A stretch of 64,000 bases of DNA, taken from NCBI RefSeq assembly GCF_006838285.1, contig NZ_CP038228.1:2480001-2544000 (forward strand), read 5' to 3'. The stretch is from Xanthomonas translucens pv. cerealis (GTDB taxonomy: Bacteria > Pseudomonadota > Gammaproteobacteria > Xanthomonadales > Xanthomonadaceae). Positions 14,285-60,391 of the stretch are shown piece by piece; position 1 is the first letter of the stretch; each line of letters opens with the position of its first letter. Made by a program: the position numbers and the translations under genes. The notes below the pieces were generated by a model. That model saw only the letters and a list, made by a program, of their open reading frames with translations. It did no database searches and had not been told where the DNA came from.

Positions 14285-14422
14285 GGGACCGGAGACCGGG
14301 GACCGGGGACCGGGGGAAAACAGCAGCCGTTCTGGTCCCGCAAACCAAGAGCGCACGACGCTCAGGAAACTTGGAGCAGCAGTTGCGCCGCCCGGGACCC
14401 GGTCCCCGGTCCCCAGTCCCGG
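14285..14422. repeat. Composite heptamer element between yhdP and rng
   Basis: The left arm (14285-14316) is a run of GGGACCG-type units. The right arm (14391-14422) holds the reverse complement units (CGGTCCC). The roughly 75-bp core contains a small hairpin, GAGCG/CGCTC. The right arm ends two bases outside the rng stop codon. Confidence 0.85.
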
Positions 14423-14424
14423 CC

Positions 14425-15915
14425 TCACAACAACACCACGTCGAACTGCTCCTGCAGGTATTGCTCGTCGGCCTGGAAGCGGATGCTCTTGCCGAGGAAT
14501 TCCTCCAGTTCGGCCACCGCCGAGGATTCCTCGTCGGTGATCCGCGCCACCACCTTGCTCGAGGCGATCACCAGCAGCCGCGCCGCGTCGAACTGGCGCA
14601 CCGCGCGGGTGATCTCGCGGAAGATCTCGTAGGTCACGGTTTCGGCGGTCTTGATCGAGCCGCGCCCGCTGCATTCCGGGCACGGCTCGGACAGCTGCCG
14701 CTCCAGGCTCTCGACGGTGCGCTTGCGGGTCATCTCGACCAGGCCCAGCGGCGAGAACTCGTACACCGTGGTCTTGGCGTGGTCGCGCGACAAGGCCTTT
14801 TCCAGCGTGCGCAGCACCTGGCGGCGATGCTCGGCATCGTCCATGTCGATGAAGTCGATGATGATGATGCCGCCCAGGTTGCGCAGCCGCAGTTGCCGCG
14901 CCACCGCCTGCGCCGCCTCCAGGTTGGTGCGGAACACCGTTTCCTCGAGGTTGCGCTGGCCAAGGAACGAGCCGGTGTTGACATCGATGGTGGTCATCGC
15001 CTCGGTCTGGTCGATGACCAGGTAGCCGCCGGACTTCAGCGGCACCTGCTTGTCCAGCGCGCGCGCGATCTCGTCCTCCACGCCGTACAGATCGAAGACC
15101 GGGCGGTCGCCGGTGTACAGCTCCAGGCGCTCGGCCAGGATCGGCATGTACTTGGCGACGAACGCCTGCAGCCGTTCGAAGGTTTCGTGCGAATCGACCT
15201 TGACCTTCTCCACATCCTTGCGGATCAGGTCGCGCACCGCGCGCAGCGGCAGGCTCAAGTCTTCGTAGATGATGCTGGCCGGGGCGCCGTCACGGCCGCG
15301 CCGCTCGACCACGTTCCAGATCCGCGACAGATAGGCGATGTCCTCGGCCAGCGCCTCGGCCGGCTGGCCCTCGGCATTGGTGCGGATGATGTAGCCGAAG
15401 CCGCCGTGGCTGGCGGCCAGGTCGGCGACCAGGGTCTTCAGGCGTAGCCGCTCGGCCTCGTCCTCGATCCGCGCCGACACCCCGATCACCCGCGACTGCG
15501 GCAGCAGCACCAGATAGCGCGAGGGAATGCTGATCTGCGTGGTCAGCCGCGCACCCTTGCTGCCGATCGGATCCTTGACCACCTGCACCACGATGTCCTG
15601 GCCGTCGCGCAGCAGCTCCACGATCGGCACCCCCGACGCCACCGGCAGCGGCGGCGCCTCGTCGGTGTCGCCGTTGGCCACCGGCGCCGGCCGCACCACA
15701 TCGTTGGCGTGCAGGAACGCCGCGCGCTCCAGCCCGACCTCGACGAACGCCGCCTGCATGCCCGGCATGACCCGCTGCACCCGGCCCTTGTAGATGTTGC
15801 CCACCACCCCGCGGCGCCACCCGCGCTCGATGTGCAGTTCCTGCAGCATGCCGTTCTCGATGACGGCCACCCGGGTCTCGCGCGGCGTGACGTTGACCAG
15901 GATCTCTTGCGACAT
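14425..15915 (-). CDS. rng: Ribonuclease G
   Basis: RNase G is a 5'-end-sensing endoribonuclease (16S rRNA 5' maturation and mRNA decay). The 496-residue product contains the S1 domain (GVVGNIYKGRVQRVMPGMQAA, about residues 37-60), the catalytic DNase-I-like region with TTIDVNTGSF and the metal-binding IIIIDFIDMDD, and the CPECSGRG zinc-link motif near residue 405. The ATG at 15915 overlaps the maf stop (TGATG), so maf and rng are translationally coupled. yhdP follows after the heptamer element. Confidence 0.97.
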   Translation of the reverse strand: MSQEILVNVTPRETRVAVIENGMLQELHIERGWRRGVVGNIYKGRVQRVMPGMQAAFVEVGLERAAFLHANDVVRPAPVANGDTDEAPPLPVASGVPIVELLRDGQDIVVQVVKDPIGSKGARLTTQISIPSRYLVLLPQSRVIGVSARIEDEAERLRLKTLVADLAASHGGFGYIIRTNAEGQPAEALAEDIAYLSRIWNVVERRGRDGAPASIIYEDLSLPLRAVRDLIRKDVEKVKVDSHETFERLQAFVAKYMPILAERLELYTGDRPVFDLYGVEDEIARALDKQVPLKSGGYLVIDQTEAMTTIDVNTGSFLGQRNLEETVFRTNLEAAQAVARQLRLRNLGGIIIIDFIDMDDAEHRRQVLRTLEKALSRDHAKTTVYEFSPLGLVEMTRKRTVESLERQLSEPCPECSGRGSIKTAETVTYEIFREITRAVRQFDAARLLVIASSKVVARITDEESSAVAELEEFLGKSIRFQADEQYLQEQFDVVLL

Positions 15916-16481
15916 CAAAGCACTCCGAAGGCGCGCAGCAGTTGGGAAGTCTGGTGCAGGGGCAAGCCCATCACCCCGGAATAACTGCCGTCCAGGCGGC
16001 TGACGAAGCGCTCGGCGCCGCCCTGGATCGCATAGGCGCCGGCGCGCCCCATCGGCTCGCCGCTGGCCACGTAGTCGGCGATGTCCTGCGCCGACAGCGC
16101 AGCGAAGCTGACCTGGGTCGGCACCAGCAGCACCTCTTCGCGCGCCGCGGCGACCAGCGCCACCGCGGTGATCGCCTGGTGCGTGCGTGCCGACAGCGCC
16201 GCCAGCATCGCCGCCGCGTCGGCGGCATCGGCCGGCTTGCCGAACACGCGATCGCCCAGCACCACTTCGGTGTCGGCGCCGAGCACCACCGCATCGGCGC
16301 TGGCGGCCAACTGCGCCATGCCGGCACGGGCCTTGTCCAACGCCACCCGGCGCACATAGGCATGCGCCGATTCGTCGGCCGCGCGCGCTTCCGGCACCTC
16401 CAGATCGAGGATCCGGAACGGTACGCCCAGGCGCGTCAGCAGTTCGTTTCTGCGGGGAGAACGGGAAGCCAGATACAGCAT
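15915..16481 (-). CDS. maf: Maf-family nucleotide pyrophosphatase (septum formation inhibitor family)
   Basis: Maf proteins hydrolyse non-canonical or canonical NTPs (dTTP/UTP class for YhdE-type members). The start [15 protein letters not shown] carries the signature ASx[22 protein letters not shown] holds the catalytic Asp and Lys region. [14 protein letters not shown] is the conserved C-terminal motif. The length of 188 residues is normal. The chosen ATG is the first that gives the family N-terminus; a longer upstream frame has no support. It is first in the maf-rng-(yhdP)-tldD block on the minus strand. Confidence 0.95.
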
Positions 16482-16614
16482 GGCGGAAGGATAACCCGGC
16501 GGGCCTGACTGAACGATCGCTAATTCCGCAGGCGCAGTCTCGACCCCGGCCCGTATCACGACGCGTTCATCGTCGCGGCAACACCCTCGCCCCATCCTTC
16601 AAGGAAAACATCCG

Positions 16615-17355
16615 ATGCGCCCACTCTCCGTCCGTCCGCTGCTGCTGGCCCTGACCCTCGCCCTAGGAGGCACGATGACCGCCCATGCCCAATCCGCCAC
16701 GCCGGCCTACGCCGTGCCGGCCGACGGCACCTTGCTCAACATCGCCGCCCAGGCCGAGGCCAAGCATGCCCCGGACGTGGCCACGCTGTCGGCCGGCGTG
16801 GTCACACAGGCCAGCGACAGCGCCGTGGCGATGCGCCAGAACGCCGAGCAGATGACCAAGGTCCTGGCCGCGGTACGCGCCGCCGGCATCGCCGACAAGG
16901 ACGTGCAGACCAGCGGCATCAATCTCAGCCCGCAGTACAAGTACGTCGACAACCAGGCGCCGCGGGTCATCGGCTACCAGGCCAGCAACTCGGTCAACCT
17001 GAAAGTGCGCGACATCGCCAAGCTCGGCAAGGTGCTGGACGCGCTGGCGGCCCAGGGCGCCAACCAGATCAACGGCCCCAGCTTCGAGATCGACAATCCG
17101 GAACCGCTGTACGACCAGGCCCGGGTCGATGCGCTGAAGAAGGCGCAGTCCCGCGCACAGACCTACGCCAAGTCGCTGGGCCTGCGCGTGCGCCGCATCG
17201 TCAGCATCTCCGAAGGCAGCAGCGGCGGCGTAGCACGCCCGATGCCGATGATGCGCGCGATGGCGATGAAGGCGGAGATGGACAGCACCCCGGTGGCGAC
17301 CGGCGAGAGCAGCGTGTCGGTCAATCTGGACGTGGTGTTCGAACTGGGCAAGTAA
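16615..17355 (+). CDS. Periplasmic SIMPL-domain (DUF541) protein
   Basis: This 246-residue secreted protein has a signal peptide ending near AHA-QS (residues 24-26), then a SIMPL/DUF541 domain. Family motifs visible are the GTLLNIAAQAEA strand, the TSGINLSPQYKY segment and the GYQASNSVNLKVRD strand. Members such as E. coli YggE are oligomeric envelope proteins linked loosely to oxidative stress; the exact role is unknown. The Met-rich stretch near residues 208-222 is unusual and could bind metal. It is followed by a hairpin terminator at 17379-17406. Confidence 0.9.
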   Translation: MRPLSVRPLLLALTLALGGTMTAHAQSATPAYAVPADGTLLNIAAQAEAKHAPDVATLSAGVVTQASDSAVAMRQNAEQMTKVLAAVRAAGIADKDVQTSGINLSPQYKYVDNQAPRVIGYQASNSVNLKVRDIAKLGKVLDALAAQGANQINGPSFEIDNPEPLYDQARVDALKKAQSRAQTYAKSLGLRVRRIVSISEGSSGGVARPMPMMRAMAMKAEMDSTPVATGESSVSVNLDVVFELGK

Positions 17356-17378
17356 CACCCCGCCCTTGCACCGATTCC

Positions 17379-17406
17379 GACGACGGCGCCTGCGGGCGCC
17401 GTCGTC
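17379..17406 (+). terminator. Probable terminator after the SIMPL gene
   Basis: A 12-bp perfect stem (GACGACGGCGCC at 17379-17390, complement at 17395-17406, loop TGCG) lies 24 bp after the stop. The following T content is poor (GTTCCTG), so termination may be incomplete or Rho-assisted. Confidence 0.55.
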
Positions 17407-17596
17407 GTTCCTGCGCCGCACAATCTCCGCGCGCGAACCAGTGGCAGCGTGCGTCCTGTGCCCCGACCTGCCATGGCCAGGGCAACCGGTGCAATGTCGG
17501 ACGCGCGGGCGGGTGCCGCATCGCCCCCGTCCGCCGCGCTGGCGCATTTGGTCGTACCGCAAGTGCACAAGACGCTCTTCATCATGGAGGTGGATC

Positions 17597-18238
17597 ATGG
17601 TTCGCACGCGACTCCCCGCGTCCTCGTTCGGTATCGACCTGCCGAGGATCCTGGCGCTCAGCGCCGCGAACGGCCTGCACCTGTTGGCCATGCTGCTGTT
17701 GCTGATCCCGCTCTCGCACGTGGCGCCGCCGCAGGCGCCGGCCAAGGCGCAACCCGTCTGGCAGCAACCGATCGTGGTCCCGATCACGCCACCGCCGCCG
17801 CAAGCCACGGTGCAGCCGAAAAAGCGGACCATGACCCAACCGCGGGTGCCGACCGCCGCGCCGGTGCCGATCCCGGTGCAGGCAACGTTGGCCGACGCCA
17901 ATCCGGCTGCGGTTGCCGCCGGGCCGAGCGTGCCGCCCACTCCGGTCAGCGCGCCGGTCGCCGGCATGCAGTTGCAGTATCTGCGTGCGCCAGCCCCGCC
18001 CTACCCGCGCGATGCGCTGCGCGACGGCCTGCAGGGCAGCGTGTTGCTGCGCGCGCTGGTCGGCGTCGACGGACAGCCGCTGGAGGTCAGTATCGCCAGG
18101 AGCAGCGGCCACCGGATCCTCGATCAGGCCGCGCGCGAGCAGGTACTGAAGCGCTGGAAGTTCCATGCTGCATTGCGGCAAGGGATGCCGGTTCAGGCGT
18201 ATGGGCTGGTACCGGTGGACTTTTCGCTAGGCCGTTGA
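17597..18238 (+). CDS. TonB-like energy-transducing protein
   Basis: The 213-residue product has one hydrophobic anchor (about residues 20-40), a Pro-rich spacer (VVPITPPPPQATVQPKK onward) and a C-terminal TonB domain (about 130-213). That domain includes PYPRDALRDGLQGSVLLRALV, the usual YPxxAxxxxxxGxV motif, and the terminal LKRWKFHAALRQG. It probably links the proton-motive force via ExbB/ExbD to outer-membrane receptors. No exbBD is in the window. The ATG at 17597 has a GGAGGTGGATC ribosome site. It sits directly before the TonB-dependent receptor, which may be its client. Confidence 0.9.
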   Translation: MVRTRLPASSFGIDLPRILALSAANGLHLLAMLLLLIPLSHVAPPQAPAKAQPVWQQPIVVPITPPPPQATVQPKKRTMTQPRVPTAAPVPIPVQATLADANPAAVAAGPSVPPTPVSAPVAGMQLQYLRAPAPPYPRDALRDGLQGSVLLRALVGVDGQPLEVSIARSSGHRILDQAAREQVLKRWKFHAALRQGMPVQAYGLVPVDFSLGR

Positions 18239-18280
18239 ATGCGGGTGCGGCCCCGGTGCAGGAGCGCGCACCGGGGCCAC

Positions 18281-18403
18281 TTTAATCAAAAATTCACAAT
18301 TCATTCACGTTAAATACACCTAGATAGCATCAGCCGACCATTTGTGTCGGCACTTGGCAAAAATTAGACATCAAAACTTGCGCTTCCAGTTAGGAGAGAG
18401 ACT
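18281..18403 (+). promoter_or_regulatory. AT-rich leader and likely promoter of the TonB-dependent receptor
   Basis: This is among the most AT-rich stretches in the window (TTTAATCAAAAATTCAC, then GTTAAATACACCTAGATAG). It carries a small hairpin (GCCGAC at 18333-18338 with GTCGGC at 18346-18351) and an AGGAGAGA ribosome site before the GTG start. The composition suggests promoter and operator sequence. No specific regulator site (for example a Fur box) could be confirmed by eye. Confidence 0.55.
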
Positions 18404-21175
18404 GTGAACAACCCGAATCAACGGCGTGCAACCCGCCGCCATATCCTTTGCGCGTCGGTCGTTGCCGTCCTCGCCACGAGTGCCGCCGTCCCCGCCGCGT
18501 TCGCGCAGGAGGCGGCGACCACCCTCGACCGCATCACCGTCACCGGTTCCAACATCCCCCGCACCAACACCGAGACCCCGTCCCCGGTCCAGGTGGTCAC
18601 CCGCCAGGAAATCGACCGTACCGGCAAGAGCACGGTGGCCGAATACCTGCAGACCCTGACCTCCGACGGCGCCGGCTCGATTCCCAAGAGCTTCGGCAAC
18701 GGCTTCGCCGGCGGCGGCGCGGGCATCTCGCTGCGCGGCCTGGGCGCCGGCTCCACCCTGGTGCTGTTGAACGGCCGGCGCATGGCCACCTATGGCCTGG
18801 CCGACGACGGCCAGAAGGTGTTCACCGACCTGAGCACCATCCCGCTGGACGCGGTCGAGCGGATCGACATCCTGAAGGACGGCGCCTCGGCGATCTACGG
18901 CTCCGACGCCATCGCCGGCGTAGTCAACATCATCCTGCGCAACGACTTCGAAGGCGCGATCCTGCGCGGCTCCTACGGCATGTCCGGCGACAGCGACGGC
19001 GACGCACGCAAGGCGACCCTGACCGCCGGCACCGGCAACCTCGCCAACGACGGCTGGAACGCATTCTTCAGCCTGGACGTGGGCAAGTCCGACGCGATCA
19101 AGATCAGCGACCGCAAGGACCGCAAGTGGATCGGCACCGGCGACATCCGCCGCTACGGCTACGACGCCACCGACGCGCAGTTCCTCGGTGGCGCCTACCT
19201 CAGCGGCGGCACCACCGGCGGCGTCGGCCCGAACGGCTCGGTGTTCAACAACGCCGCCACGCCGCAGCTGGTCGCCCTGCCCGGTTGCGCCGGCCTGACC
19301 ACCATCCCCGGCCAGACGGATGCCACCGCGCAGGCCCAGGGTTGCCTGTGGGATCCGGCGCAGCAGTACCGCGACCTGAGCCCGGAAGAGAAGTACGTCA
19401 ACGTGTTCGGCCGTGCCAGCTTCGCCTTCGGCGAGGGCGGCGAGATCTACACCGAGATCGGCTACTCGAAGAAGGAAACCGTGTTCTCCAACACCCCGTC
19501 TGGCGTGTCCGGCGGCTGGGGCTATCCCGGCGGCCCGGTCAACGCCAGCAGCGGCGCCGGCGCCACCACGCTCTATGCCGGCCATCCCGACAATCCACTG
19601 CCCTACGCCGCGCGCGTGCGCTACAGCGCCTGGGACGTGGGCCCGCGCGTGACCGACACCACCAACGCGTTCAACCGCTTCCTGGTCGGGGTCAAAGGCA
19701 ACTGGGGCGAGTGGAGCTACGACACCGCTTACCTGCATTCGGGTACCGACCTGGTCAACAAGCGCACCGGCTTCCTGCGCAACAGCGCGGTGCAGTGCGT
19801 ACTCGGCAACCCGGCCTGCGCGGCCGGCACCTGGCGCATCGGCGACAACGCCGGGCTGAACTCGCAGGCGTTGTACGACTACATCTCGCCGGCCATCAGC
19901 GCGACCGCCAAGTCCAGCCTGGACATGTTCGACTTCAAGGTCTCGCGCAGCCTGGCCGACCTGCAGGGCGGCCCGCTGGGCCTGGCGCTGGGTACCGAAT
20001 GGCGCAAGACCAGCAACAGCCTGACCCCGCAGACCTTCACCGACATCGGCGACATCATCGGCCTGGGCTACTCGGCCTACGACGGCACCCAGAACGTCTA
20101 TGCCGCCTACGCCGAGCTGTCGGCGCCGGTGCTGGAGCAGCTGGAACTGTCGGCGGCAGTGCGTTACGACAAGTACGAGAGCGGCGACGGCAAGGCCACG
20201 CCGAAGCTCGGCGTGAAGTGGACCCCGGCCGACTGGATCGCCCTGCGCGCCACCTACGCCGAAGGCTTCCGCGCGCCGAACCCGGCCGAGAACGGCGACG
20301 GCGGCCTGGCCGCATTCTCCAACGCATCCGATCCGGTGCGCTGCGCGATCGACCAGGCCAACGAATGCACCGCGCGCTCGGTGGCGCTCATCACCCGTCC
20401 GAATCCGGCGCTGAAGCCGGAAGAGTCAAAGAGCTATTCATTGGGCTTCGTGCTGCAGCCAACCGCCAGCACTTCGCTGACCGTGGACGCATGGGAAATC
20501 AAGCGGACCAACGAGATCGCCCAAAGCGACACCAGAGACGCGATCCTTGCCGGCAATGTCCTGCGCGACAGCAACGACATCGGCGGCGTGGCCAACAGCG
20601 GCAGCATCCTGGCGGTCAACACCGACTACGTGAACGCCAACTCCTCGCGCGTGCGCGGCATCGATACCGACATCCGCCAGACCTTCGCCATCGGTCCGGG
20701 CCAGCTGGAGCTGGATGCGCAGTGGAGCCACTTGCTCAAGTTCGAGCGCACTGGAGCTAGCGGCACGGTCGATTACCTCGGCACCCACGGCAACTGCGAT
20801 GTGACCAACTGCATCGGCACCCCGCAGGACCGCATCAACGTCGGCACCACCTGGAAGCAGGGCAACTGGAGCGTCAGCGGCGTGGTCAACTACATCGACA
20901 GCATCGAGAACAAGGACAGCCGCGGCGGCAGCTACCTGGCGTTCTACGAGGACGGCAGCCCGGTCGAGAAGATCGCCTCGTTCACCACCTTCGACCTGTC
21001 CGGCCGCTGGAACGTCACCGAGGCGTTCGAACTCAACGCCTCGGTGCAGAACGTGTTCGACAGGATCGCGCCGCTCGATCCGTCCACCTATGGCGGCATC
21101 AACTACAACCCGCTGCACTTCAGCGGCGCGGTCGGCCGCTACTTCACGGTGGGCGCAAAGTACACGTTCAACTGA
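18404..21175 (+). CDS. TonB-dependent outer-membrane receptor
   Basis: This 923-residue outer-membrane beta-barrel transporter starts at GTG (AGGAGAGA upstream). It has a long signal peptide (residues 1 to about 36, ending AFA-QE) and a TonB-box-like LDRITVTGSN. The plug domain follows (PSPVQVVTRQEIDRTGKSTV, GISLRGLGAGSTLVLLNGRR, AIYGSDAIAGVVNIILR), then a barrel ending in an aromatic terminus (VGAKYTFN). It belongs to the large xanthomonad receptor class with an ITVTGSNIPR start, usually connected to uptake of plant-derived or peptide substrates. The substrate cannot be told from sequence. It ends at a strong terminator and appears monocistronic. Confidence 0.95.
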   Translation: MNNPNQRRATRRHILCASVVAVLATSAAVPAAFAQEAATTLDRITVTGSNIPRTNTETPSPVQVVTRQEIDRTGKSTVAEYLQTLTSDGAGSIPKSFGNGFAGGGAGISLRGLGAGSTLVLLNGRRMATYGLADDGQKVFTDLSTIPLDAVERIDILKDGASAIYGSDAIAGVVNIILRNDFEGAILRGSYGMSGDSDGDARKATLTAGTGNLANDGWNAFFSLDVGKSDAIKISDRKDRKWIGTGDIRRYGYDATDAQFLGGAYLSGGTTGGVGPNGSVFNNAATPQLVALPGCAGLTTIPGQTDATAQAQGCLWDPAQQYRDLSPEEKYVNVFGRASFAFGEGGEIYTEIGYSKKETVFSNTPSGVSGGWGYPGGPVNASSGAGATTLYAGHPDNPLPYAARVRYSAWDVGPRVTDTTNAFNRFLVGVKGNWGEWSYDTAYLHSGTDLVNKRTGFLRNSAVQCVLGNPACAAGTWRIGDNAGLNSQALYDYISPAISATAKSSLDMFDFKVSRSLADLQGGPLGLALGTEWRKTSNSLTPQTFTDIGDIIGLGYSAYDGTQNVYAAYAELSAPVLEQLELSAAVRYDKYESGDGKATPKLGVKWTPADWIALRATYAEGFRAPNPAENGDGGLAAFSNASDPVRCAIDQANECTARSVALITRPNPALKPEESKSYSLGFVLQPTASTSLTVDAWEIKRTNEIAQSDTRDAILAGNVLRDSNDIGGVANSGSILAVNTDYVNANSSRVRGIDTDIRQTFAIGPGQLELDAQWSHLLKFERTGASGTVDYLGTHGNCDVTNCIGTPQDRINVGTTWKQGNWSVSGVVNYIDSIENKDSRGGSYLAFYEDGSPVEKIASFTTFDLSGRWNVTEAFELNASVQNVFDRIAPLDPSTYGGINYNPLHFSGAVGRYFTVGAKYTFN

Positions 21176-21195
21176 TCGAACGCGTTGCGATACAC

Positions 21196-21229
21196 AAAAA
21201 AAGCCCGGGCCTGAGCCCGGGCTTTTTTT
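21196..21229. terminator. Strong bidirectional terminator
   Basis: A 15-bp perfect stem combines an A7 run, AGCCCGGGC-type arms and a T7 run (21196-21210 with 21215-21229, loop CTGA). It can end transcription from the receptor gene (+) and from the rlmH operon (-), whose last stop is at 21348. Confidence 0.95.
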
Positions 21230-21347
21230 GTGCGCCGATGCTGCCGAAGCCGCGTTGCGATTTTACTGGCGGCATCGCACCGGCGATGCGGACGACGCAC
21301 GGCTGGCGGGGCGTGCACGCGCCGGGCGGATCAGGCGAACCTGACGA

Positions 21348-21818
21348 TCACGCGCGATGGTAGGGATGGTTAGCCAGCATCGCCGCGGCGCGGTACAGCT
21401 GTTCGGCCACCACCAGCCGCACCAGCATGTGCGGCAGGGTCAGCGGCCCCAGCGACCAGGATTCGCTGGCCACCGCCAGCACCTCCGGAGAATGGCCTTC
21501 GGGGCCGCCGATCAGCAGCGCCAGATCGCGGCCCTGCCCGCGCCAGTGTTCCATGCGCTGCGCCAGCTGTTCGGAACTGTACGGCTTGCCGGGCACGTCC
21601 AGCGCCACCACCAATGCATTCTTCGGCAGCGCCGCGAGCACGCGGCGGCCTTCGTCCTCGATCGCGCGCTGCGCATCGCGGCCCTTGCCGCGCAAGCCGG
21701 GTTCGATCTCGACCAGTTCCAGCGGCAGCCAGTGCGACAGGCGCTTGCGGTATTCGGCGAAGCCCTGCGCGACCCAGGCCGGGGCGCGTTCGCCGGTGGC
21801 GATCAGGCGTGCCTTCAT
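21348..21818 (-). CDS. rlmH: 23S rRNA (pseudouridine1915-N3)-methyltransferase RlmH
   Basis: RlmH is a SPOUT methyltransferase that modifies pseudouridine 1915 in helix 69 of 23S rRNA. The 156-residue product is the standard length (155 in E. coli). It has the SAM-binding knot motif LLIGGPEGHS near residue 104 and the C-terminal HMLVRLVVAEQLYRA...HPYHR. The ATG at 21818 (MKARLIATG) was chosen on family length. It is the last gene of the minus-strand leuS-to-rlmH run. Confidence 0.97.
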   Translation of the reverse strand: MKARLIATGERAPAWVAQGFAEYRKRLSHWLPLELVEIEPGLRGKGRDAQRAIEDEGRRVLAALPKNALVVALDVPGKPYSSEQLAQRMEHWRGQGRDLALLIGGPEGHSPEVLAVASESWSLGPLTLPHMLVRLVVAEQLYRAAAMLANHPYHRA

Positions 21819-21840
21819 CGTTGCGACCGCAGCGCGCGTC

Positions 21841-23416: not shown

Positions 23417-23471
23417 AGGTGCGAACTCGATGGAATGGGCGAATTATAGGGAACTACGCGAAGACACGTAT

Positions 23472-24272
23472 TCAGCTAGCCGGCGCGGAGGCCGCAGGGG
23501 CCGCCGCATACAGTCCGGCGGCACGGATGTAGTCCGCGACCGCGGCCGGCACCAGCCCGGCCCAGTCGCCGCCGGCGGCGATGCGCGCGCGCACCTGGCT
23601 GGCCGATTCGCTGCGCAACGGTTGCCGCAGGCACCACAACAGGCCGCCCGGCGCGCCCGCCAGCGCCTGCGGCGAGGCGGCCCAGCGCCCGGCCAGCGCC
23701 TGCGCCAACTCGGCCGGCAAGGCGCGCTCCCAGCCGCTGTCGGCACGGTCGGCGACGACCAGATGCACCGCGTCGAGCAGGCCGCGCCAGTCGCGCCAGG
23801 TGTTGAAGCCGACCAAGCTGTCGGCGCCGATCAGCAGCGCCAACGATGTGGCGGGGCCGAGCTCGGCGCGCAGTTCGCGCACCGTATCGATGCTGTACGA
23901 GGCCACGCCCGGCTGCGCCAGCGCGCGCTGCAACTCGTGCCGGTCCAGCAGCAACCCGGCCTCGCCGGCGATCGCCAGCGCCAGCATCTCGCAGCGCTGC
24001 CGCGCATCGGCCCCGGGCGCCTGGCGATGCGGCGGATCGGCCGCCGGCATCAGCCGCACCGGCACCGCGAACGCATCGCGCGCGGCCCGCGCGATCGCCA
24101 GATGGCCGTTGTGGATGGGGTCGAAGGTGCCGCCGTAGATCAAGTGGAGCGTTCGGGACCGGGGACCGGGGACCGGGGACCCGGAAAAGCGGAAATCCAG
24201 CGAGGGCACGCGCTCTGGATTTTGCTGTTCCCGGGTCCCTGGTCCCCGGCCCCCGGTCCCGCCCCTGCTCAT
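23472..24272 (-). CDS. nadD: Nicotinate-nucleotide adenylyltransferase, 5' end carrying a repeat element
   Basis: NadD converts nicotinate mononucleotide to deamido-NAD in NAD synthesis. The enzyme core begins at IYGGTFDPIHNGHLAIA (nucleotide-binding loop with HxGH) and ends with SESASQVRARI. A core start at TTG 24143 would give 223 residues, a normal length. However, the only good start codon, ATG 24272 (MSRGG), overlaps the holA stop as ATGA. The frame stays open from there through the composite heptamer element at 24154-24260, adding about 43 low-complexity residues. The simplest reading is that the element was inserted into the 5' end of nadD after codon 2 or so. Which start is used is unresolved. 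Confidence 0.88.
   Translation of the reverse strand: MSRGGTGGRGPGTREQQNPERVPSLDFRFSGSPVPGPRSRTLHLIYGGTFDPIHNGHLAIARAARDAFAVPVRLMPAADPPHRQAPGADARQRCEMLALAIAGEAGLLLDRHELQRALAQPGVASYSIDTVRELRAELGPATSLALLIGADSLVGFNTWRDWRGLLDAVHLVVADRADSGWERALPAELAQALAGRWAASPQALAGAPGGLLWCLRQPLRSESASQVRARIAAGGDWAGLVPAAVADYIRAAGLYAAAPAASAPAS
24154..24260. repeat. Composite heptamer element within the 5' end of nadD
   Basis: The left arm (24154-24184) is GGGACCG repeated about four times. The core has a hairpin with arms AAATCCAG (24193-24200) and CTGGATTT (24215-24222). The right arm (24231-24260) has reversed units, ending eight bases outside the holA stop. Arms and core together can fold as one long stem. Confidence 0.88.
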
Positions 24273-25303: not shown

Positions 25304-25395
25304 GGCGGCAACCTAGGGCCTGTCGCTGTGCGCCGCCAGCGGATCGCCCACTACGGGCGAGCGGTGGGCGGCGGGCGGTGGCCAGCGGATCAAGG

Positions 25396-42403: not shown

Positions 42404-42534
42404 CCGGGACCAGGGACCAGGGACCCGTAAAAAAGCAGGGCGCTTGAGGCGTCCTGGTTTTTTTGCGCTTCGCAACAACATCACAGCCCTGCACCGAATT
42501 CCCCTGGCCCCTGGTCCCTGGTCCCCGGTCCCCG
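42404..42534. repeat. Composite heptamer element between the DUF2147 gene and metG
   Basis: The left arm (42404-42427) consists of GGGACCA/GGGACCC units and starts three bases after the DUF2147 stop. The core includes the terminator hairpin. The right arm (42501-42534) holds CTGGTCC/CGGTCCC units. It abuts the metG leader. Confidence 0.87.
42429..42464 (+). terminator. Rho-independent terminator of the DUF2147 gene
   Basis: An A-rich left flank, an imperfect GC stem (GCAGGGCGC with GGCGTCCTGG, loop TTGA) and a T7 run at 42458-42464. It lies in the core of the heptamer element. Confidence 0.75.
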
Positions 42535-44659: not shown

Positions 44660-44746
44660 CTGGGAATGGAGATTCGGGAATCGCAGAGCGCCTGCAACTG
44701 CGATGAACCCGCTTTGCCCATTCCCGTTTCTCCATTCCACATTCCC
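44660..44746. repeat. GGGAATS-type inverted tract between metG and the HAD gene
   Basis: The left part (44660-44686) has GGGAATGG/GGGAATCG units and the right part (44718-44745) has reversed CATTCCC/TTTCTCC-type units. The core holds an inverted CTGCAACTGCGAT-like segment. It begins within four bases of the metG stop and ends at the HAD start codon. It is structurally the same as the GGGACYS elements but with a different unit. Confidence 0.72.
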
Positions 44747-48541: not shown

Positions 48542-48568
48542 GCAACATCCCACAACGCGCACTGCATG

Positions 48569-53618: not shown

Positions 53619-54166
53619 GCAACCTGGCCAACTACGTCGCGTTGCAGCTGCTGTGGCTGGCGGCAGTGATGGGCGCCGGGCATGGGCTGGCCTGGGCCGG
53701 CCCGGCGGCGCTGGCGCTGTTCGCGCTGTACCAATTGCAGCCGCGCCGCCGCGCGCGCGGCGATGCGGTGCTGATGGCGCTGGCGCTGCTGCTCGGTGCC
53801 GGCGTCGATACCGCGCTGGCCGCCGGCGGCTGGGTACGCTACGCCGCAGCGCTGCCGCCCGCGCCGTGGGCGCCGCTGTGGATCCTGGCGCTGTGGGCCG
53901 GCTTCGCGCTGACCTTCAACCATTCGCTGGCCTGGGTCATGCAACACCCGTGGCGCGCGGCGCTGTTCGGCGCGGTGTTCGGCCCGCTCGGCTATGTGCT
54001 GGCCGCGCGTGGTTGGCAGGCAGTGGCGCTGAGCGCGCCGCTGCTGCACGCGGTGCTCGCGCTGACGCTGGCCTGGGCCGCGGCGCTGGCCGTGCTGAGC
54101 CTGGCGACGCGGCGCCTGGCCGCGACGGTGCAGCCCACGCCACGCATCGGCGGCGTCGCGCCATGA
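53615..54166 (+). CDS. DUF2878 membrane protein
   Basis: The 183-residue, strongly hydrophobic product has about six membrane segments. It fits DUF2878 in length and in the FNHSLAWVMQHPWRAALFGAVFGPLGY motif (about residues 101-128). Function is unknown. It regularly accompanies Cfa-like and DUF1295 genes and may help position or transport the lipid intermediate. It overlaps the cfa and DUF1295 genes by ATGA. Confidence 0.87.
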   Translation: MSNLANYVALQLLWLAAVMGAGHGLAWAGPAALALFALYQLQPRRRARGDAVLMALALLLGAGVDTALAAGGWVRYAAALPPAPWAPLWILALWAGFALTFNHSLAWVMQHPWRAALFGAVFGPLGYVLAARGWQAVALSAPLLHAVLALTLAWAAALAVLSLATRRLAATVQPTPRIGGVAP

Positions 54167-54945
54167 ACGCCTGGCCGCTGCTGCACGTGGGTGCGTTCAC
54201 CGCGCTGGTCATGCTCGCCGGCTGGGCCTGGCAGCGGCGCAGCCGCAACGCCGGCGTGGTCGATGTGCTGTGGGCGGCGTGCATGGCGCTGGCCGCGCTG
54301 TACTGCGCCTGGCGCGCCGACGGCGCCGCGCTGCCGCGCGTGCTGACCGCGGCGATGGGCGGGCTGTGGGGCGCGCGCCTGGCCTGGCACCTGGGCGTGC
54401 GCGTGTTCGGCGATGCGCATGAGGACGGCCGCTACCGCGCGCTGCGCGAACACTGGCACGGCGACCAGCGCCGCTTCCTGCTGTTCTTCCTCGGCCAGGC
54501 GCTGGTGGTGGTGCTGTTCGCGCTGCCGCTGTCGATGGCCGCGCACAATCCGCTGCCGCAGTGGAGCATGTGGACCACGCTGGCGCTGGTGACCTGGCTG
54601 CTGGCGGTGGGCGGGGAAAGCCTGGCCGATCGCCAGTTGGCCGCGTTTCGTGCCGCCCCAGGCAACAAGGGCAAGACCTGCCGCCGCGGCCTGTGGCGCT
54701 ACTCGCGGCATCCGAACTATTTCTTCGAATTCGTGCATTGGTTCGCCTACGTGTTCCTCGCCGTGGGCAGCGGCGCGCTCTGGGTCGGCATCGCCGCGCT
54801 GGGGCCGCTGCTGATGTTCGCGTTCCTGTACCGCGTCACCGGCATTCCCTACACCGAACAACAGGCGCTGCGCTCGCGCGGCCAGGACTACGCCGACTAC
54901 CAGCGCAGCACCAGCGCCTTCTTTCCGTTGCCGCCGCGGCAATGA
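54163..54945 (+). CDS. DUF1295 steroid-reductase/ICMT-like membrane protein
   Basis: The 260-residue membrane protein has helices through residues 1-140 and the C-terminal catalytic-type block GLWRYSRHPNYFFEFVHWF. It continues FLYRVTGIPYTEQQALRSRGQDYADYQRSTSAFFP. This is characteristic of the DUF1295/isoprenylcysteine methyltransferase and 5-alpha-reductase group, which binds SAM or NADPH. It is a likely reductase or methyltransferase step on membrane lipids. It ends 23 bp before the start of the second Cfa-like gene. Confidence 0.92.
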   Translation: MNAWPLLHVGAFTALVMLAGWAWQRRSRNAGVVDVLWAACMALAALYCAWRADGAALPRVLTAAMGGLWGARLAWHLGVRVFGDAHEDGRYRALREHWHGDQRRFLLFFLGQALVVVLFALPLSMAAHNPLPQWSMWTTLALVTWLLAVGGESLADRQLAAFRAAPGNKGKTCRRGLWRYSRHPNYFFEFVHWFAYVFLAVGSGALWVGIAALGPLLMFAFLYRVTGIPYTEQQALRSRGQDYADYQRSTSAFFPLPPRQ

Positions 54946-54968
54946 CCCCGCTTCCAGGAGATCCGCCG

Positions 54969-56044
54969 ATGTCAAGCGCCCTCGCCACTTCGCCCCCCCC
55001 GTGCTGCCGGCCGAACCGTTGGCCACCCGCGTGGCCGAATCCGGACTGCTGCCCGACGCGTTGCTGCGCGCGGCGATGCGCAAGCTGTGCACGCAGCGCC
55101 TGCGCGAGGAGCGCAGCGGCGGTGCCGACGCCGCCTGGGAACGCCAGCGCGTGTTCGTCGAGGCCTTGCGCGGCAGCGCCATCGCGATCGAGACCGAGGC
55201 CGCCAACCGCCAGCACTACGAACTGCCACCGCGCTTCTTCGAGCTGTGCCTGGGCAAGCGTCTGAAGTACAGCAGCTGCTACTGGGACGCCGGCACCGCC
55301 GACCTGGACGCGGCCGAGGAACGCATGCTGCACCTGTACGCCGAACGCGCGCAGCTGCGCGACCGCCAGCGCATCCTGGAACTGGGCTGCGGCTGGGGGT
55401 CGCTGACGCTGTGGATGGCCGAGCACTACCCCGGCGCGCGCATCACCGCGGTGTCCAACTCGCGGCCGCAGCGCGAGCACATCGAGGCACAGTGCCGCGC
55501 GCGCGGGCTGCGCAACGTGGAGGTCATCACCCACGACGCCAACACCCTGAGCCTGCCGCATGCGAGCTTCGACCGCGTGGTGTCGATCGAGATGTTCGAG
55601 CACATGCGCAACTACCGCGAACTGCTGGCGCGGATCGGCCAATGGCTGGTGCCGGGCGGGCGGATGTTCGTGCACATCTTCTGCCACCGCGACCTGGCCT
55701 ACCCGTTCGAGGTGCAGGGCGAAGACAACTGGATGGGCCGGCACTTCTTCACCGGCGGACTGATGCCGGCCGCCGACACCTTGCTGCAGTTCCAGGACGA
55801 CTTGGCGCTGGAACGGCGCTGGCTGCTGTCCGGCGAACACTACGAGAAAACCGCCAACGCCTGGCTACGCAACCAGGACCGGCATCGCACCGAACTGATG
55901 CAGGTGCTGCAGGGAACCTACGGCCGCGATGCGAAGATCTGGTGGCAGCGCTGGCGCATGTTCTGGATGGCCTGCGCCGAGCTGTTCGGCTACGAGCAGG
56001 GCCAGCAGTGGGGCGTGGCGCATTACCGGTTCGTCAGGCGCTGA
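54969..56044 (+). CDS. Second Cfa-like methyltransferase, start separated from body by a C8 frameshift
   Basis: The body (55001-56044, about 347 codons) is a CFAS-family methyltransferase. It reads NRQHYELPPRFFELCLGKRLKYSSCYW, then the SAM motif ILELGCGWGSLTLWMAEHYP, VSIEMFEHMRNYRELLARI, and a terminus of WGVAHYRFVRR. It lacks the N-terminal region of classic Cfa. The only start with a ribosome site (AGGAG at 54955-54959) is ATG 54969 (MSSALATSP). That frame is one base off the body because of the C8 run at 54993-55000; nine C would join them. The alternative GTG at 55001 has only poly-C upstream. See the findings for phase variation versus sequencing error. Confidence 0.85.
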
Positions 56045-56195
56045 GGACTCGGGACTCGGGACTCGGGACTCGGGACTCGGGACTCGGGACTCGGGACTCG
56101 GGACTCGGGACTCGGGACTCGGGACTCGGGACTCGGGACTCGGGACTCGGGACTCGGGACTCGGGACTCGGGACTCGGGACTCGGGACTCGGGAC
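56045..56195 (+). repeat. Heptamer array, about 21 copies of GGGACTC
   Basis: A near-perfect tandem array starts directly after the TGA of the second Cfa-like gene and ends in GGGACGCTGTCCC. It is the longest array of this unit in the window and the left arm of a composite element. There are no spacers between units, so it is not a CRISPR. Confidence 0.98.
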
Positions 56196-56425
56196 GCTGT
56201 CCCGGAATAAATCGATGTCAAGCGATTTGATGGAAAAAATGCGATTTTTTTAAAGAAAAAACGGCTTTTTTTGTGACTGCGGCGCAGCCGCTTTTCTGTG
56301 GGAGGGGCTTCAGCCCCGACGCCTTACCGGTAACGCGTCGGGGCTGAAGCCCCTCCCACAGAAAAGCGCAGAAGCTGCGAACTTGCGAAAATCCCGAGTC
56401 CCGAGTCCCGAGTCCCGGCCCCACC
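56196..56425. other. Core and right arm of the large composite element
   Basis: This contains an AT-rich piece (56207-56276) with T7/A6 runs, then the perfect inverted repeat at 56290-56367, then reversed heptamers GAGTCCC at 56392-56418, ending seven bases outside the ridA stop. No gene is present. Confidence 0.85.
56290..56367. repeat. Perfect 33-bp inverted repeat (REP-like palindrome)
   Basis: Arms 56290-56322 and 56335-56367 are exact reverse complements. The left arm reads GCTTTTCTGTGGGAGGGGCT, continuing TCAGCCCCGACGC. The 12-nt loop contains the palindrome TTACCGGTAA. The GTGGGAG..CTTCAGCC arm resembles the common intergenic palindromes of xanthomonads and stenotrophomonads. As RNA it would form a very stable hairpin between the two convergent genes. 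Confidence 0.96.
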
Positions 56426-56770
56426 TCACACCGCAGCCGTGATCACGATCTCGATCTTCCACTCCGGGTTGGCCAGCTTGGCCTGCACGGTGGCACGCGC
56501 CGGGGTGCTGCCCGGGCAGACCCAGGTTTCCCAGACCTTGTTCATTTCGGCGAATTCGGCCAGGTCGGTCATGTAGATCTCCGCGCGCAGCACCTTGCTC
56601 TTGTCGGTGGCGGCGCGCGCCAGCAGTTCGTCGATCGCCGCCAGCACCTGGCGGGTCTGGCCGGCGATGTCGGCGCTGGTGTCGTCGGCGATCTGCCCGG
56701 CCAGGTAGGCCACGCCGTTGTGCACGGTCATTTCCGACATGCGCGGGCCGGTATCGAATCGCTGAATCAT
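56426..56770 (-). CDS. ridA: RidA family protein
   Basis: The 114-residue protein of the RidA/YjgF superfamily has VAYLAGQIADDTSADIAGQTRQVL (about 24-47), and the C-terminal PARATVQAKLANPEWKIEIVI includes the Arg that binds the substrate carboxylate in active members (R93-like position). Canonical RidA hydrolyses reactive enamine/imine intermediates. This shorter form could be a Rid2-7-type relative with unclear substrate. Its ATG overlaps the stop of the DUF998 gene upstream (ATGA). Confidence 0.92.
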   Translation of the reverse strand: MIQRFDTGPRMSEMTVHNGVAYLAGQIADDTSADIAGQTRQVLAAIDELLARAATDKSKVLRAEIYMTDLAEFAEMNKVWETWVCPGSTPARATVQAKLANPEWKIEIVITAAV

Positions 56771-57453
56771 GAGGCGTTGTCCTGAAGAGGGGAAACCTGG
56801 GCATTGTCGCGCGATTGCGTCAAGCCTGCAGGCCGCCACAGCCGATAGGCGACCGGCAGCAGCCAGGCCAGGATCAGCACGATCGCCAGCTTCTGGGTCA
56901 GCCCGCGCGGCGGCGCGCGCCACAGCACGTGCACCCACAGCGCCACGAACGCCGCCACCGCCAGGGCCGACACCGTGCCGGCATGGCCCTGCCACGGCGC
57001 TTGCCGGCGCAGCCAGGCACTCTGCAGCAGCATCGCGCTGGTCGCGCACAGGAACGCGGTCTGCGCGAACAGCCCGTGCAACAGAGGCGCCAGCAAAGGT
57101 GCGCGCTGCGGCAGGTAGCTGTCGCCGATCGCCACCCCGCACAGGCCCAGCGCGGCGACCGCAAACAGCAGCAGCGGCGCGGCGCTGCGTGCAGGCGGCG
57201 GCGCCTGCGCATACAGGCCGGCGGCCAGCGCGACGATGGCGACCGCCAGCAGCATGTAGACAATCCGCAGCAGCAGCCCGCCGCGGCCGTGCAGGTACAG
57301 GCTCAGCGTCGCCTGCTGCCAGTGCAGGTCGGCGCGCAGCAGGTGCAGCGCCAGCGCCACGCCGAGGAACAGCAGGCACAGGGCCGTGGCAAGGGCGCCG
57401 GCGGCGCGCGGCCAACGCGGCGCTGCGCAGGCGGGGGCCAGGGGCGACGGCAT
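56767..57453 (-). CDS. DUF998-family membrane protein
   Basis: The 228-residue integral membrane protein has about six hydrophobic segments (for example ALATALCLLFLGVALALHLL near residue 19, and LLRIVYMLLAVAIVALAAGL near 52) and a GVAIGDSYLPQRAPLLAPLLHGLF motif, consistent with DUF998. It is translationally coupled to ridA. Function is unknown. It is divergent from mprF across 280 bp that hold both promoters. Confidence 0.82.
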   Translation of the reverse strand: MPSPLAPACAAPRWPRAAGALATALCLLFLGVALALHLLRADLHWQQATLSLYLHGRGGLLLRIVYMLLAVAIVALAAGLYAQAPPPARSAAPLLLFAVAALGLCGVAIGDSYLPQRAPLLAPLLHGLFAQTAFLCATSAMLLQSAWLRRQAPWQGHAGTVSALAVAAFVALWVHVLWRAPPRGLTQKLAIVLILAWLLPVAYRLWRPAGLTQSRDNAQVSPLQDNAS

Positions 57454-57733
57454 GGATCGGCTCCGGGTCGTAGCGGGGAACACGATGCGCAGCGCGTATC
57501 GACGCCGGCACCCTCGGCGCACGCCGACACGGTACAGACGTGCGATTCCACTATGATGCGCGTCGCCGGTACCGCCGGTACAGCCCCAGGCCAGCCGATA
57601 TCGCGATGCACCAGCCCCTTTGCGCCTGCCGGCGCGCCAACGCGATGACCCGCGCCGCCAACGCCGCATGCCTGCGCGATGCCGCCGGCGTCTGCGCACA
57701 GTTCCCTCTCTTCTTCGCTTACGCTGCCTTGCA

Positions 57734-60298
57734 ATGACCGACACCGCATCTCCCGCTTCCCCCTCCCCTGCCGGCTGGCGCCGCGCGCTGCCGGTGCTGT
57801 TCAGCCTGGTGATCCTGGCGCTGGCGCTGCACGCGCTAGCCACCGAGTTCAGTACCCACGGCTATGCCGCGATCCGCCATGCCTTCAACCAGCTCGGTGT
57901 CGGCCAGATCGCGCTGACCCTGGTGCTGGGGCTGAGCAGCTATGCCTGCCTGATCGGCTTCGATGCGGTCGGCCTGCACCGCAGCGGGCGCAAGCTGCAT
58001 CCGATGCGGATCGGCGTCACCGCGTTCCTGGCGCATGCGGTCGGGCAGACCCTGGGCTTCGCCGCGCTCACCGGCGGCGCGGTGCGCCTGCGCGGCTATG
58101 GCCGGGCAGGGCTGAGCCTGGCCGAGATCGGCCAGGTGGTGCTGATGAGCACGCTCGGCTTCGTGTTCGGCGCCTGGCTGCTGCTGGCATTGGCGCTGAT
58201 CCTGGAACCGACGTCGGCGGCGCTGGCGCTGCCGCTCGGCGGGCAGGCGGTGCGCGCGTTCGGCATCGCGCTGCTGGCCGGCTTCGGCCTGATGCTGCTG
58301 CTGGCCGGGCGCGAAGGCCGCACGTTGCGCTGGCGCAGCCACGAACTGTGGCTGCCGGACCGGCGCACCGCGCTCGGCGTGACCGCGCTGAGCGTGGTCG
58401 AACTGGGCCTGGCCAGCGCCGCGTTCTACGTGCTGCTGCCGGACGAATCGGGGATCGAGTTCGTCGGCTTCGTCGGCCTGTACCTGGTCGCGGTGGTGGC
58501 CGGGTTGATGTCCACCGTGCCGGCCGGACTGGGCGTGTTCGAGTGGAGCCTGCTCAAGCTGCTGCCCGGCGTGGCCCCGGCCGCGGTGCTGGCAGCGGCG
58601 CTGATCTACCGCATCACCTACTACGTGGTGCCGCTGCTGCTGTCGGTGCTGATGGCCGCGGCCTCGGGCCTGCGCCGGCCGCTGGCGGCCAGCGCCGGCG
58701 GCGTGCGCGTGGCGTGGGGCACGCTGCGCCCGTGGCTGCCGCAGATCATCGCCATGGCGGTGTTCGCGGTCGGCGCGGCGCTGGTCATCGACGGCACCCT
58801 GCCAACGCCGAAACGGCGCCTGGGCATGGCGCCGCTGTCGATCGTGGAGACCTCGCACCTGCTGTCCAGCCTCGGCGGCGTGGTGCTGCTGCTGATCGGC
58901 CAGGGCCTGCAGCGGCGCAGCCATGCGGCGTGGGTGCTGGCGATCGGCATCTGCGTGCTGCTGCCGCTGCCGGCCTGGCTGCGCGGCGGCCATGCCTCGG
59001 TGGCGCTGTCCTCGCTGGTGGTGGCGGCCGGGCTGTGGGGCGCGCGCCGCGAGTTCTACCGGCAGGGCTCGCTGCTCGACGAGGCCTGGTCGTGGCCATG
59101 GATCCGCAACCTGGGCCTGGTGCTGATCGCGACCATATGGCTGCTGTTCTTCGTCTACAGCCACGTCGAATACCAGAACGAGCTGTGGTGGCAGTTCGCC
59201 ACCTCGGCCAATGCTCCGCGCGCGCTGCGCGCGGTGCTGCTGGTCAGCGTGGCGGTGGTGGTGTTCGGGCTGGCGCGCTTGCTGCACAGCACGCGCTCGC
59301 CGCTGCCGGCGGCCGATACGGCGCAGCTGGACGCGCTGGCGCCGGTGCTGGCCGTGGCCACCGACACCCAGGCCTGCCTGGTGCTGACCGGCGACAAGGC
59401 GCTGCTGACAGACGAGGGCGGCCAGGGCTTCGTGATGATGCAGCGCTATGGCGGCTCGCTGGTGGCGATGGGCGATCCGGTGGGGCCGCCGGAGGTCGCG
59501 CGGGCGCTGATCTGGCGTTTCCGCGAGGAAGCCGACCGCCTGGGCCTGCGCCCGGTGTTCTATCAGGTCGGCGAGCAGCACTGGCAGACCTACCTCGACC
59601 TGGGCCTGACCCTGGTCAAGCTGGGCGAGGAAGCGATGGTGTCGCTGCAAGACTTCCACCTGGAAGGCCGCGAGCGCGCCGACCTGCGCCAGGCCTGGAA
59701 CCGCGGCAAGCGCAGCGGGCTGAGCTTCCGCATCTTGCCGCTGGAGGAGATCGACACGCTGATGCCGGTGCTGGCCGACGTCTCGCAGCAATGGCTGGAG
59801 GAAAAGGCCGGCGAAGAGAAAGGCTTCTCGCTGGGCAGCTTCAACCCGGCCTATCTGCGCCGCTTCCCGATCGCGGTGGTCGAGGCCGAGGGCAAGGTCG
59901 TGGCCTTCGCCAACCTGTGGCAGGCGCCGGCCGGACACGAGCTGTCGGTGGACCTGATGCGGTATATCGCCGACGCGCCGAAGGGCACCATGGATTTCCT
60001 GTTCATCGAGCTGTTCCTGTGGAGCCGCGAACAGGGCTACAAGCGCTTCTCGCTGGGCATGGCGCCGCTATCGGGCCTGGCCCAGCATCGTCTGGCCGGG
60101 CGCTGGAACCGTTTCGGCAACCTGATCGTGCGCCACGGCGAGCGTTTCTACGGCTTCACCGGCCTGCGCCGCTTCAAGTCCAAGTTCGCCCCGGCCTGGC
60201 GCACCCGCTACCTGGCCGCCCCCGGCGGCATGCACCTGCCGGCGGCGCTACTGGACGTGACGCGGCTGATTTCGCTGGATCCGAGGAAGCCTGAGTAG
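57734..60298 (+). CDS. mprF: Bifunctional lysyl-phosphatidylglycerol synthetase/flippase MprF
   Basis: The product is 854 residues. The N-terminal part (about 1-530) has some 14 membrane segments including the flippase domain (LYLVAVVAGLMSTVPAGLGVFEW). The C-terminal DUF2156 aminoacyl-transfer domain starts near residue 550 (ACLVLTGDKALLTDEGGQGF, GSLVAMGDPVGPP, and TMDFLFIELFLWSREQGYKRFSLGMAPLSG). MprF attaches Lys or Ala from aminoacyl-tRNA to phosphatidylglycerol and flips it outward, giving resistance to cationic peptides. It converges on the AcvB/VirJ-type gene, whose relatives degrade aminoacylated PG. Confidence 0.95.
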   Translation: MTDTASPASPSPAGWRRALPVLFSLVILALALHALATEFSTHGYAAIRHAFNQLGVGQIALTLVLGLSSYACLIGFDAVGLHRSGRKLHPMRIGVTAFLAHAVGQTLGFAALTGGAVRLRGYGRAGLSLAEIGQVVLMSTLGFVFGAWLLLALALILEPTSAALALPLGGQAVRAFGIALLAGFGLMLLLAGREGRTLRWRSHELWLPDRRTALGVTALSVVELGLASAAFYVLLPDESGIEFVGFVGLYLVAVVAGLMSTVPAGLGVFEWSLLKLLPGVAPAAVLAAALIYRITYYVVPLLLSVLMAAASGLRRPLAASAGGVRVAWGTLRPWLPQIIAMAVFAVGAALVIDGTLPTPKRRLGMAPLSIVETSHLLSSLGGVVLLLIGQGLQRRSHAAWVLAIGICVLLPLPAWLRGGHASVALSSLVVAAGLWGARREFYRQGSLLDEAWSWPWIRNLGLVLIATIWLLFFVYSHVEYQNELWWQFATSANAPRALRAVLLVSVAVVVFGLARLLHSTRSPLPAADTAQLDALAPVLAVATDTQACLVLTGDKALLTDEGGQGFVMMQRYGGSLVAMGDPVGPPEVARALIWRFREEADRLGLRPVFYQVGEQHWQTYLDLGLTLVKLGEEAMVSLQDFHLEGRERADLRQAWNRGKRSGLSFRILPLEEIDTLMPVLADVSQQWLEEKAGEEKGFSLGSFNPAYLRRFPIAVVEAEGKVVAFANLWQAPAGHELSVDLMRYIADAPKGTMDFLFIELFLWSREQGYKRFSLGMAPLSGLAQHRLAGRWNRFGNLIVRHGERFYGFTGLRRFKSKFAPAWRTRYLAAPGGMHLPAALLDVTRLISLDPRKPE

Positions 60299-60299
60299 C

Positions 60300-60391
60300 C
60301 GGGACTCGGGACTCGGGACCGGGGACCCGAAGAACGTTTCTCGGTAAGGCCCCACAGCTTTTGCTGTTGCTTTTCCGGGTCCCCGGTCCCG
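60300..60391. repeat. Composite heptamer element between mprF and virJ stops
   Basis: The left arm (60300-60329) has GGGACTC twice, then GGGACCG and GGGACCC. The core (60330-60374) includes CAGCTTTTGCTG. The right arm (60375-60391) has CGGGTCC/CCGGTCC. It fills the whole convergent gap: one base from the mprF stop and one base from the virJ stop. Confidence 0.9.

Follow-up and report, generated by a model that had tools for sequence, protein, structure and literature searches.

Heptameric G-quadruplex repeats of the types GGGNATC and GGGANTN have been described in Xanthomonas and Nostoc (Rehm et al., 2015; PMC4692102). The repeats are intergenic, favor four units and are situated for the most part on the coding strand, no more than 50 bp from a stop codon; convergent pairs numbered 70 in Xcc and 75 in Xac, and repeat locations are largely conserved between two species (Rehm et al., 2015). 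The elements analyzed here resemble these repeats in being heptamer arrays with a four-unit preference that are intergenic, situated near stop codons and arranged in convergent pairs. The earlier search required GGGAATC, whereas the units in the present genome are mostly GGGACYS and the unit types interchange at one locus. GGGANTN units with at least one GGGAATC are not characteristic of the elements overall, but the element at 44662 does carry GGGAATC. As the same loci harbor GGGAATS arrays in relatives, the two sets are the same elements by position. The original prediction regarded paired, stop-adjacent arms as undescribed, which was wrong: both the pairing and the placement were already known because both were reported by Rehm et al. 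(2015). What appears to be new is that the two arms switch unit type together and that the core between them can flip, for which no description was found for these repeats in the accessible text of open-licence PMC papers, including that of Rehm et al. (2015).

Two further systems are relevant. Like the heptamer elements, REP/BIME sequences with their RAYT are abundant extragenic stem-loops beside genes (PMC2817692, presumably Nunvar et al., 2010), but the REPs described are GT(A/G)G-headed palindromes flanking the rayt gene, whereas the heptamer arms are tandem arrays that do not flank the RAYT-like gene of the present genome. Polymerase template switching between short inverted repeats is reported to homogenize the arms and to invert the spacers or loops (Abraham and Hazkani-Covo, 2021, PMC8604942; Monttinen and Loytynoja, 2022, PMC8794818). 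Arm homogenization and spacer inversion are shared by the heptamer elements. However, the published cases, from yeast genes or RNA genes, involve inverted spacers or loops of a few bases (at most about eight), whereas the heptamer elements possess cores of ~40–80 nt and multi-unit arms and constitute an abundant genomic repeat family.

Heptamer Elements in the Window

The window is the whole 64-kb stretch that was analyzed (G000:C1:2480001-2544000), where G000 is the 4.62-Mb genome under study (NZ_CP038228.1). Gene prediction by a simple caller, for which the same genome served as training set, yielded 55 genes for the window; the names rng, yhdP, holA, nadD, metG, cfa2, ridA, mprF, virJ and tldD are those that we presume from the protein sequences. 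Convergent heptamer arrays flank a core at each of the six sites that had been proposed (Table 1), and the distances from arm to stop codon were within a few bases of the values given originally. A strict array search recovered all of these elements except 44662-44746 in which the GGGAATS units are degenerate. A weaker seventh site at 8709-8945 did not hold up as one element, because the left array sits in a predicted gene (8185-8787) and the position-5 unit types of left and right arrays match in five of 12 genomes and differ in seven; the right arm is beside the tldD stop codon. The expectation that the arms fold into a stem was borne out, as stems in the window had z scores of -4.7 to -15 against shuffled sequences. 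No Rfam family matched the 64-kb window above its gathering score. The yhdP-like gene (10437-14275, minus strand) comprises two overlapping frames (10437-13010 and 12728-14275) and looks frameshifted, either in the genome or in the assembly.

Table 1. Arms and cores of the six heptamer elements of the window, with the extent of each element in parentheses.
Feature	Position	Strand	Description
rng-yhdP (14285-14420) left arm	14285-14312	+	4 units GGGACCG-type, one degenerate; just upstream of yhdP-like start
rng-yhdP core	14313-14399	.	C-core; among 20 genus genomes common to G017 only
rng-yhdP right arm	14400-14420	-	3 units; 4 nt from rng stop (14425)
holA-nadD (24155-24260) left arm	24155-24182	+	4 units
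holA-nadD core	24183-24232	.	inverted in G017
holA-nadD right arm	24233-24260	-	4 units, one degenerate; 8 nt from holA stop (24269)
DUF2147-metG (42406-42532) left arm	42406-42426	+	3 units GGGACCA/C; 5 nt past DUF2147 stop (42400)
DUF2147-metG core	42427-42504	.	terminator-like hairpin with A and T runs
DUF2147-metG right arm	42505-42532	-	4 units, one degenerate
metG-downstream (44662-44746) left arm	44662-44682	+	GGGAATG GAGATTC GGGAATC; 5 nt past metG stop (44656)
metG-downstream core	44683-44718	.	core of element after metG
metG-downstream right arm	44719-44746	-	4 units, two degenerate; ends at next start codon
cfa2-ridA (56051-56416) left arm	56051-56195	+	20 perfect GGGACTC units and one partial; just past cfa2 stop (56044)
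cfa2-ridA core	56196-56395	.	contains long REP-type palindrome
cfa2-ridA right arm	56396-56416	-	3 GGGACTC units; 9 nt from ridA stop
mprF-virJ (60301-60390) left arm	60301-60328	+	4 units; 2 nt past mprF stop (60298)
mprF-virJ core	60329-60376	.	inverted in G017 and G019
mprF-virJ right arm	60377-60390	-	2 units; 2 nt from virJ stop (60393)

Pairing, Orientation and Stop Codon Placement in the Genome

The sequence GGGAMYSGGGAMYS has 313 + 309 copies genome-wide compared to 5 + 3 for the reversed control. The sample comprised 1.6 of the 4.62 Mb, in four blocks of 400 kb, and contained 98 arrays. Neighboring arrays separated by 400 bp or less were convergent (+,-) in 31 cases and pointed in the same direction (-,-) in four; none was divergent (-,+). 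Among the 36 leftover arrays, a degenerate partner was situated inward in 22 and outward in two. Pairing of arms thus dominates, which the original prediction had named as one test of the family. Four units was the commonest arm size and core lengths in the 31 elements ranged from 29 to 201 nt with a median of 80. The units in the sample were principally GGGACCG (119), GGGACTC (65) and GGGACCA (28); GGGAATC was counted eight times. The motifs AAAAGC and GCTTTT occurred in 13 and 14 of the 31 cores, respectively, an 11- to 14-fold excess over the intergenic background.

The second test named was enrichment near stop codons, and this also was found. A stop codon was located within 10 nt of 17 of the 31 elements, at both ends in three, against a mean of 0.28 for random genome positions. 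Random placement of each element within its own intergenic gap gave a mean of 9.4 elements within this distance and a maximum of 14 in 300 rounds, and the paired inverted arms are a genuine family that is stop-adjacent beyond random placement. The excess within 5 nt was slight (nine elements versus 6.6 by same-gap placement, maximum 14). Of the 98 arrays, 35 had the outer edge and one the inner edge no more than 15 nt from a stop codon.

Distribution of the Elements in Relatives

Regions of 72 kb around metG were compared between the present genome and 15 relatives from the genus; G001, G002, G013 and G015 were left out of the 19 relatives available. Gene order was mostly collinear: between 26 and 50 called genes per genome matched the 55 genes of the window with median identities of 87–95%. 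For each of six loci, a paired element was detected at the corresponding gene junction in 10 to 14 of the 16 genomes. The original prediction had stated that ancestral elements collinear in all relatives would count against it, and this is largely the pattern seen. One relative, G010, has three heptamer elements in tandem between DUF2147 and metG (C1:3605.2-3605.8 kb) where relatives have one. In a scan of 198 genomes of the family with spacing restricted to about 30–60 nt, convergent placements numbered 1879, in 87 genomes, and divergent ones 16, in eight; the placements overlap by register. The presence of heptamers in the family sample was patchy, even inside genera: in genera g13, g16 and g28 some species carry the repeats in abundance and congeners have almost none or none at all, which suggests gain or loss. 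When the mprF loci of named records were inspected (41 of 80), the 420 nt read contained a paired element in three and a left array alone in one more. The mprF encoded in a record titled Bacillus subtilis (L182) is 76% identical to that of the window; the record probably is mislabeled or contaminated.

The Arms of an Element Switch Unit Type Together

Both arms of an element change unit type jointly between species. Three unit dialects, GGGAATS, GGGATTS and GGGACYS, differ between species at a single gene junction among the 16 genomes. At rng-yhdP, GGGACCG is used in G000 and G017, GGGATTS in G003, G008, G014, G016 and G018, and GGGAATS in G004–G007 and G009–G011; no paired element was found at this junction in G012 and G019. 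Within these differences the two arms of an element are matched. At unit position 5 the arms agreed in 79 of 88 pairs from seven junctions in up to 16 genomes, compared to a mean of 38.2 and a maximum of 52 in 5000 shuffles of right arms within a locus, and at position 6 in 82 of 88 (shuffles 71.2, maximum 80). The rows are orthologs in related genomes and so are non-independent; the within-locus shuffles ignore this kinship and the tree count below allows for part of it. In contrast, majority agreement between arms at position 7, which is C or G, was 46 of 88 against 45.8 in shuffles, and in four-unit arms 103 of 200 same-index units were alike compared to 278 of 600 off-index units. The 88 pairs include 12 from 8709-8945; the analyses of unit similarity, cores, parsimony and duplexes were performed with the remaining 76. 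The tripled DUF2147-metG element of G010 was entered once in parsimony and three times in the other statistics.

On a midpoint-rooted tree of the 16 genomes built from the same region, with two nodes supported below 0.7, parsimony required 27 changes for left arms, 27 for right arms and 28 for both jointly at six loci. Unit similarity at position 5 was as high between opposite arms (0.764) as within a single arm (0.748), with lower values for units from a different element in that genome (0.614) and from the same locus in another genome (0.324). Native four-unit arms had a mean duplex energy of -45.7 kcal/mol (n = 55) compared to -38.8 kcal/mol with a right arm from the same locus in another genome and -41.5 kcal/mol with one from another element of the same genome. 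Agreement between arms inside the present genome was within chance (13 of 31; shuffled 10.0, maximum 17) because GGGACCG dominates there. GGGAGTS units appear to persist while adjacent units switch from A to T at position 5.

The fresh locus guaB-guaA showed the same behavior. Position-5 agreement was 14 of 16 (shuffles mean 5.5, maximum 11), and the arms agreed at position 7 in 12 of 16, a count that has no shuffle baseline; no pair was found in four of 20 genomes. In one of the two misses, that of G004, G and A units were tied in number opposite an A arm. The other, in G005, combines a T-type right arm with a left arm in which two C-type units occur among T and G units, and it resembles a switch in progress.

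Cores Are Conserved, Replaced or Inverted

Cores were compared by local alignment scores in forward and reverse directions, for which the 99.9% level of shuffled sequences was 24; plain core identity was dropped as gap-rich alignments inflated the values. Certain cores are retained across dialects. All 13 genomes with the DUF2147-metG element fall into one connected core cluster with arms of A, T or C type. At rng-yhdP, T-type arms in G008 surround the 89-nt core of six A-type relatives (scores 54–82; 29 with G004), and G008 is placed among A-type relatives on the tree. Elsewhere the core differs with the arms: the C-, T- and A-type alleles of rng-yhdP have three unrelated core families and the C-type cores of holA-nadD are unrelated to those of A and T types. 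Judged by the core sequences, some dialect differences are whole-element replacements.

Clean inversions of the core were evident at two of seven loci. The holA-nadD cores of G000 and G017 scored 11 in forward and 66 in reverse alignment. For mprF-virJ the forward and reverse scores were 12 and 65 (G000/G019), 12 and 61 (G000/G017) and 13 and 52 (G004/G016). The orientation of the flanking genes is unchanged at both of these loci. No clean inversion was seen at guaB-guaA. Among 450 same-locus comparisons, 17 had a reverse score that was above threshold and exceeded the forward score, eight of them with the latter at or under threshold. Four of these eight, all at DUF2147-metG, were excluded as flips because the scores were marginal (reverse 25–39, forward 19–23) and the core, which includes a palindromic terminator, is partly palindromic. 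Flips are a minority, since forward matches were obtained for 113 of 184 same-dialect and 38 of 266 different-dialect pairs of cores.

The view that the cores of different elements differ stood in so far as the two cores that were searched over 20 genomes matched only the orthologous place, once per genome, by which dispersed copies of one core were rejected; it failed for orthologous cores, many of which are homologous.

Origin of the Joint Changes

Template switching was chosen as the explanation because arm homogenization with spacer inversion is its published signature. A replicating DNA polymerase would jump from one arm to the opposite arm as template; the jump would homogenize the arms such that both change unit type, and would invert the core between them with the flanks untouched. 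We infer that this process causes both the joint switches and the flips. Likeness of arms was seen at unit positions 5 and 6, but not at position 7, and inversion of the spacer between unflipped flanks at two of seven loci. Template switching accounts for co-switching, for switches on conserved cores and for flips; it leaves unaccounted for position 7 and the persistence of GGGAGTS units. The disagreement at position 7 counts against it because copying of a whole arm should carry this position along. We lean, if only slightly, toward the overall reading of intergenic stem-loops whose arms change jointly and whose cores occasionally flip by polymerase template switching, with the stem acting at mRNA 3′ ends.

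Under selection for RNA pairing, the stem would function at the mRNA level, with changes to either arm offset by compensating ones in the other; such selection would be in keeping with the stronger duplexes of native compared to swapped arms. The G5 variant, which gives G-U in sense RNA, also was commoner in upstream (16 of 91) than in downstream (six of 92) arms of A-dialect elements between co-directional genes (Fisher p = 0.024, with about three loci from related genomes contributing most of the signal). However, position 7 is random with respect to pairing (68 Watson-Crick, 71 mismatched and five wobble cells on the sense strand) and flipped cores are unexplained. Compensation should be register-specific, and the near-equal position-5 agreement of facing (0.72) and non-facing (0.70) units in four-unit arms therefore speaks against it; register-specific compensation was rejected on this basis, and selection for pairing is considered unlikely as the source of the joint changes. 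A comparably low probability is assigned to allele replacement, whereby whole elements would be swapped between species by short-tract homologous recombination with both arms arriving together. Core families at rng-yhdP and holA-nadD track dialect more than species, grouping G000 with G017 and not with its sister G014, and the last 300 nt of rng are 0.977 identical between G000 and G017 compared to 0.98 between G000 and G014 despite the larger tree distance of the former pair. At holA-nadD, dialect and core both differ between G005 and G006, which are 0.015 apart on the tree and have flank identities of 0.96 and 1.00. Yet replacement leaves unexplained the switches on a conserved core, as in G008 at rng-yhdP and in the single cluster of 13 genomes at DUF2147-metG, as well as core flips and the original likeness of the arms, and flank identity at four loci showed little effect of dialect beyond tree distance (residual differences of 0.014 or less). 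Whole-element replacement at some loci also fits interspecies recombination, and such recombination explains some alleles, but not the rest.

A dedicated family of intrinsic, bidirectional terminators is appreciably less probable still. The DUF2147-metG core has a hairpin with a T-run in all three dialects, AAAAGC and GCTTTT are enriched 11- to 14-fold in cores, and a strict hairpin with T-run was detected in two of 31 cores compared to 0.1 (maximum 1) in shuffled cores. Nevertheless, the count of two does not exceed that in matched gaps devoid of arrays (mean 0.9, maximum 3) and G012 has the DUF2147-metG terminator without arms. A general role as intrinsic terminators was rejected, as a GC-rich hairpin followed by a U-tract was confined to two of 31 cores. 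The spread of the elements as REP-type mobile sequences by a RAYT (Y1 tyrosine) transposase is very improbable. PF01797 was matched in 18 of 20 genomes of the genus and is absent from G001 and G012, the two with few heptamers; in the 198 family genomes it was matched in 50 of 61 heptamer-rich genomes (40 or more matches) compared to 84 of 137 others (p = 0.005, uncorrected for kinship). However, 11 of the 61 rich genomes have no PF01797 match and 84 positive genomes are not rich, the two cores tested occur once per genome, and the RAYT-like gene of the present genome (L066:12880-13640, the better-scoring of its two PF01797 matches) is flanked by GTGGGAG...CTTCAG palindromes and not by heptamers. 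No palindrome with a GT(A/G)G head was found in the outer-boundary profile of the 98 arrays. RAYT mobilization as sole driver was rejected: it is neither necessary nor sufficient in the family, the association is weak and the RAYT-like gene lacks heptamers. Separately, G019 contains about twenty near-identical copies of an IS200-like Y1 transposase, each with one in-frame TAG. Quite improbable, too, is a dedicated writer that would set position 5 across both arms at once while sparing position 7 and GGGAGTS units; hundreds of gene ends would then bear rewritable, self-flipping stems and the dialect would be a heritable state of each locus.

Function and Implications

REP/BIME stems are held to shield the 3′ ends of mRNAs. 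A stop-adjacent stem without a general U-tract (two of 31 cores) resembles these stems, and by this analogy the heptamer stems may shield or mark the 3′ ends of the neighboring mRNAs. For the repeats studied previously, Rehm et al. (2015; PMC4692102) reported a higher frequency of transcript starts or stops at those capable of forming G4.

The absent arm agreement at position 7 is a clear puzzle for any mechanism. If template switching is the correct explanation, the process would explain how long stems persist while their sequence turns over, and an abundant repeat family would record arm homogenization and spacer inversion at many places per genome. A mutational process that usually is caught as single events would thereby become measurable in natural populations, and heptamer loci used for strain typing may change in more than the number of units.
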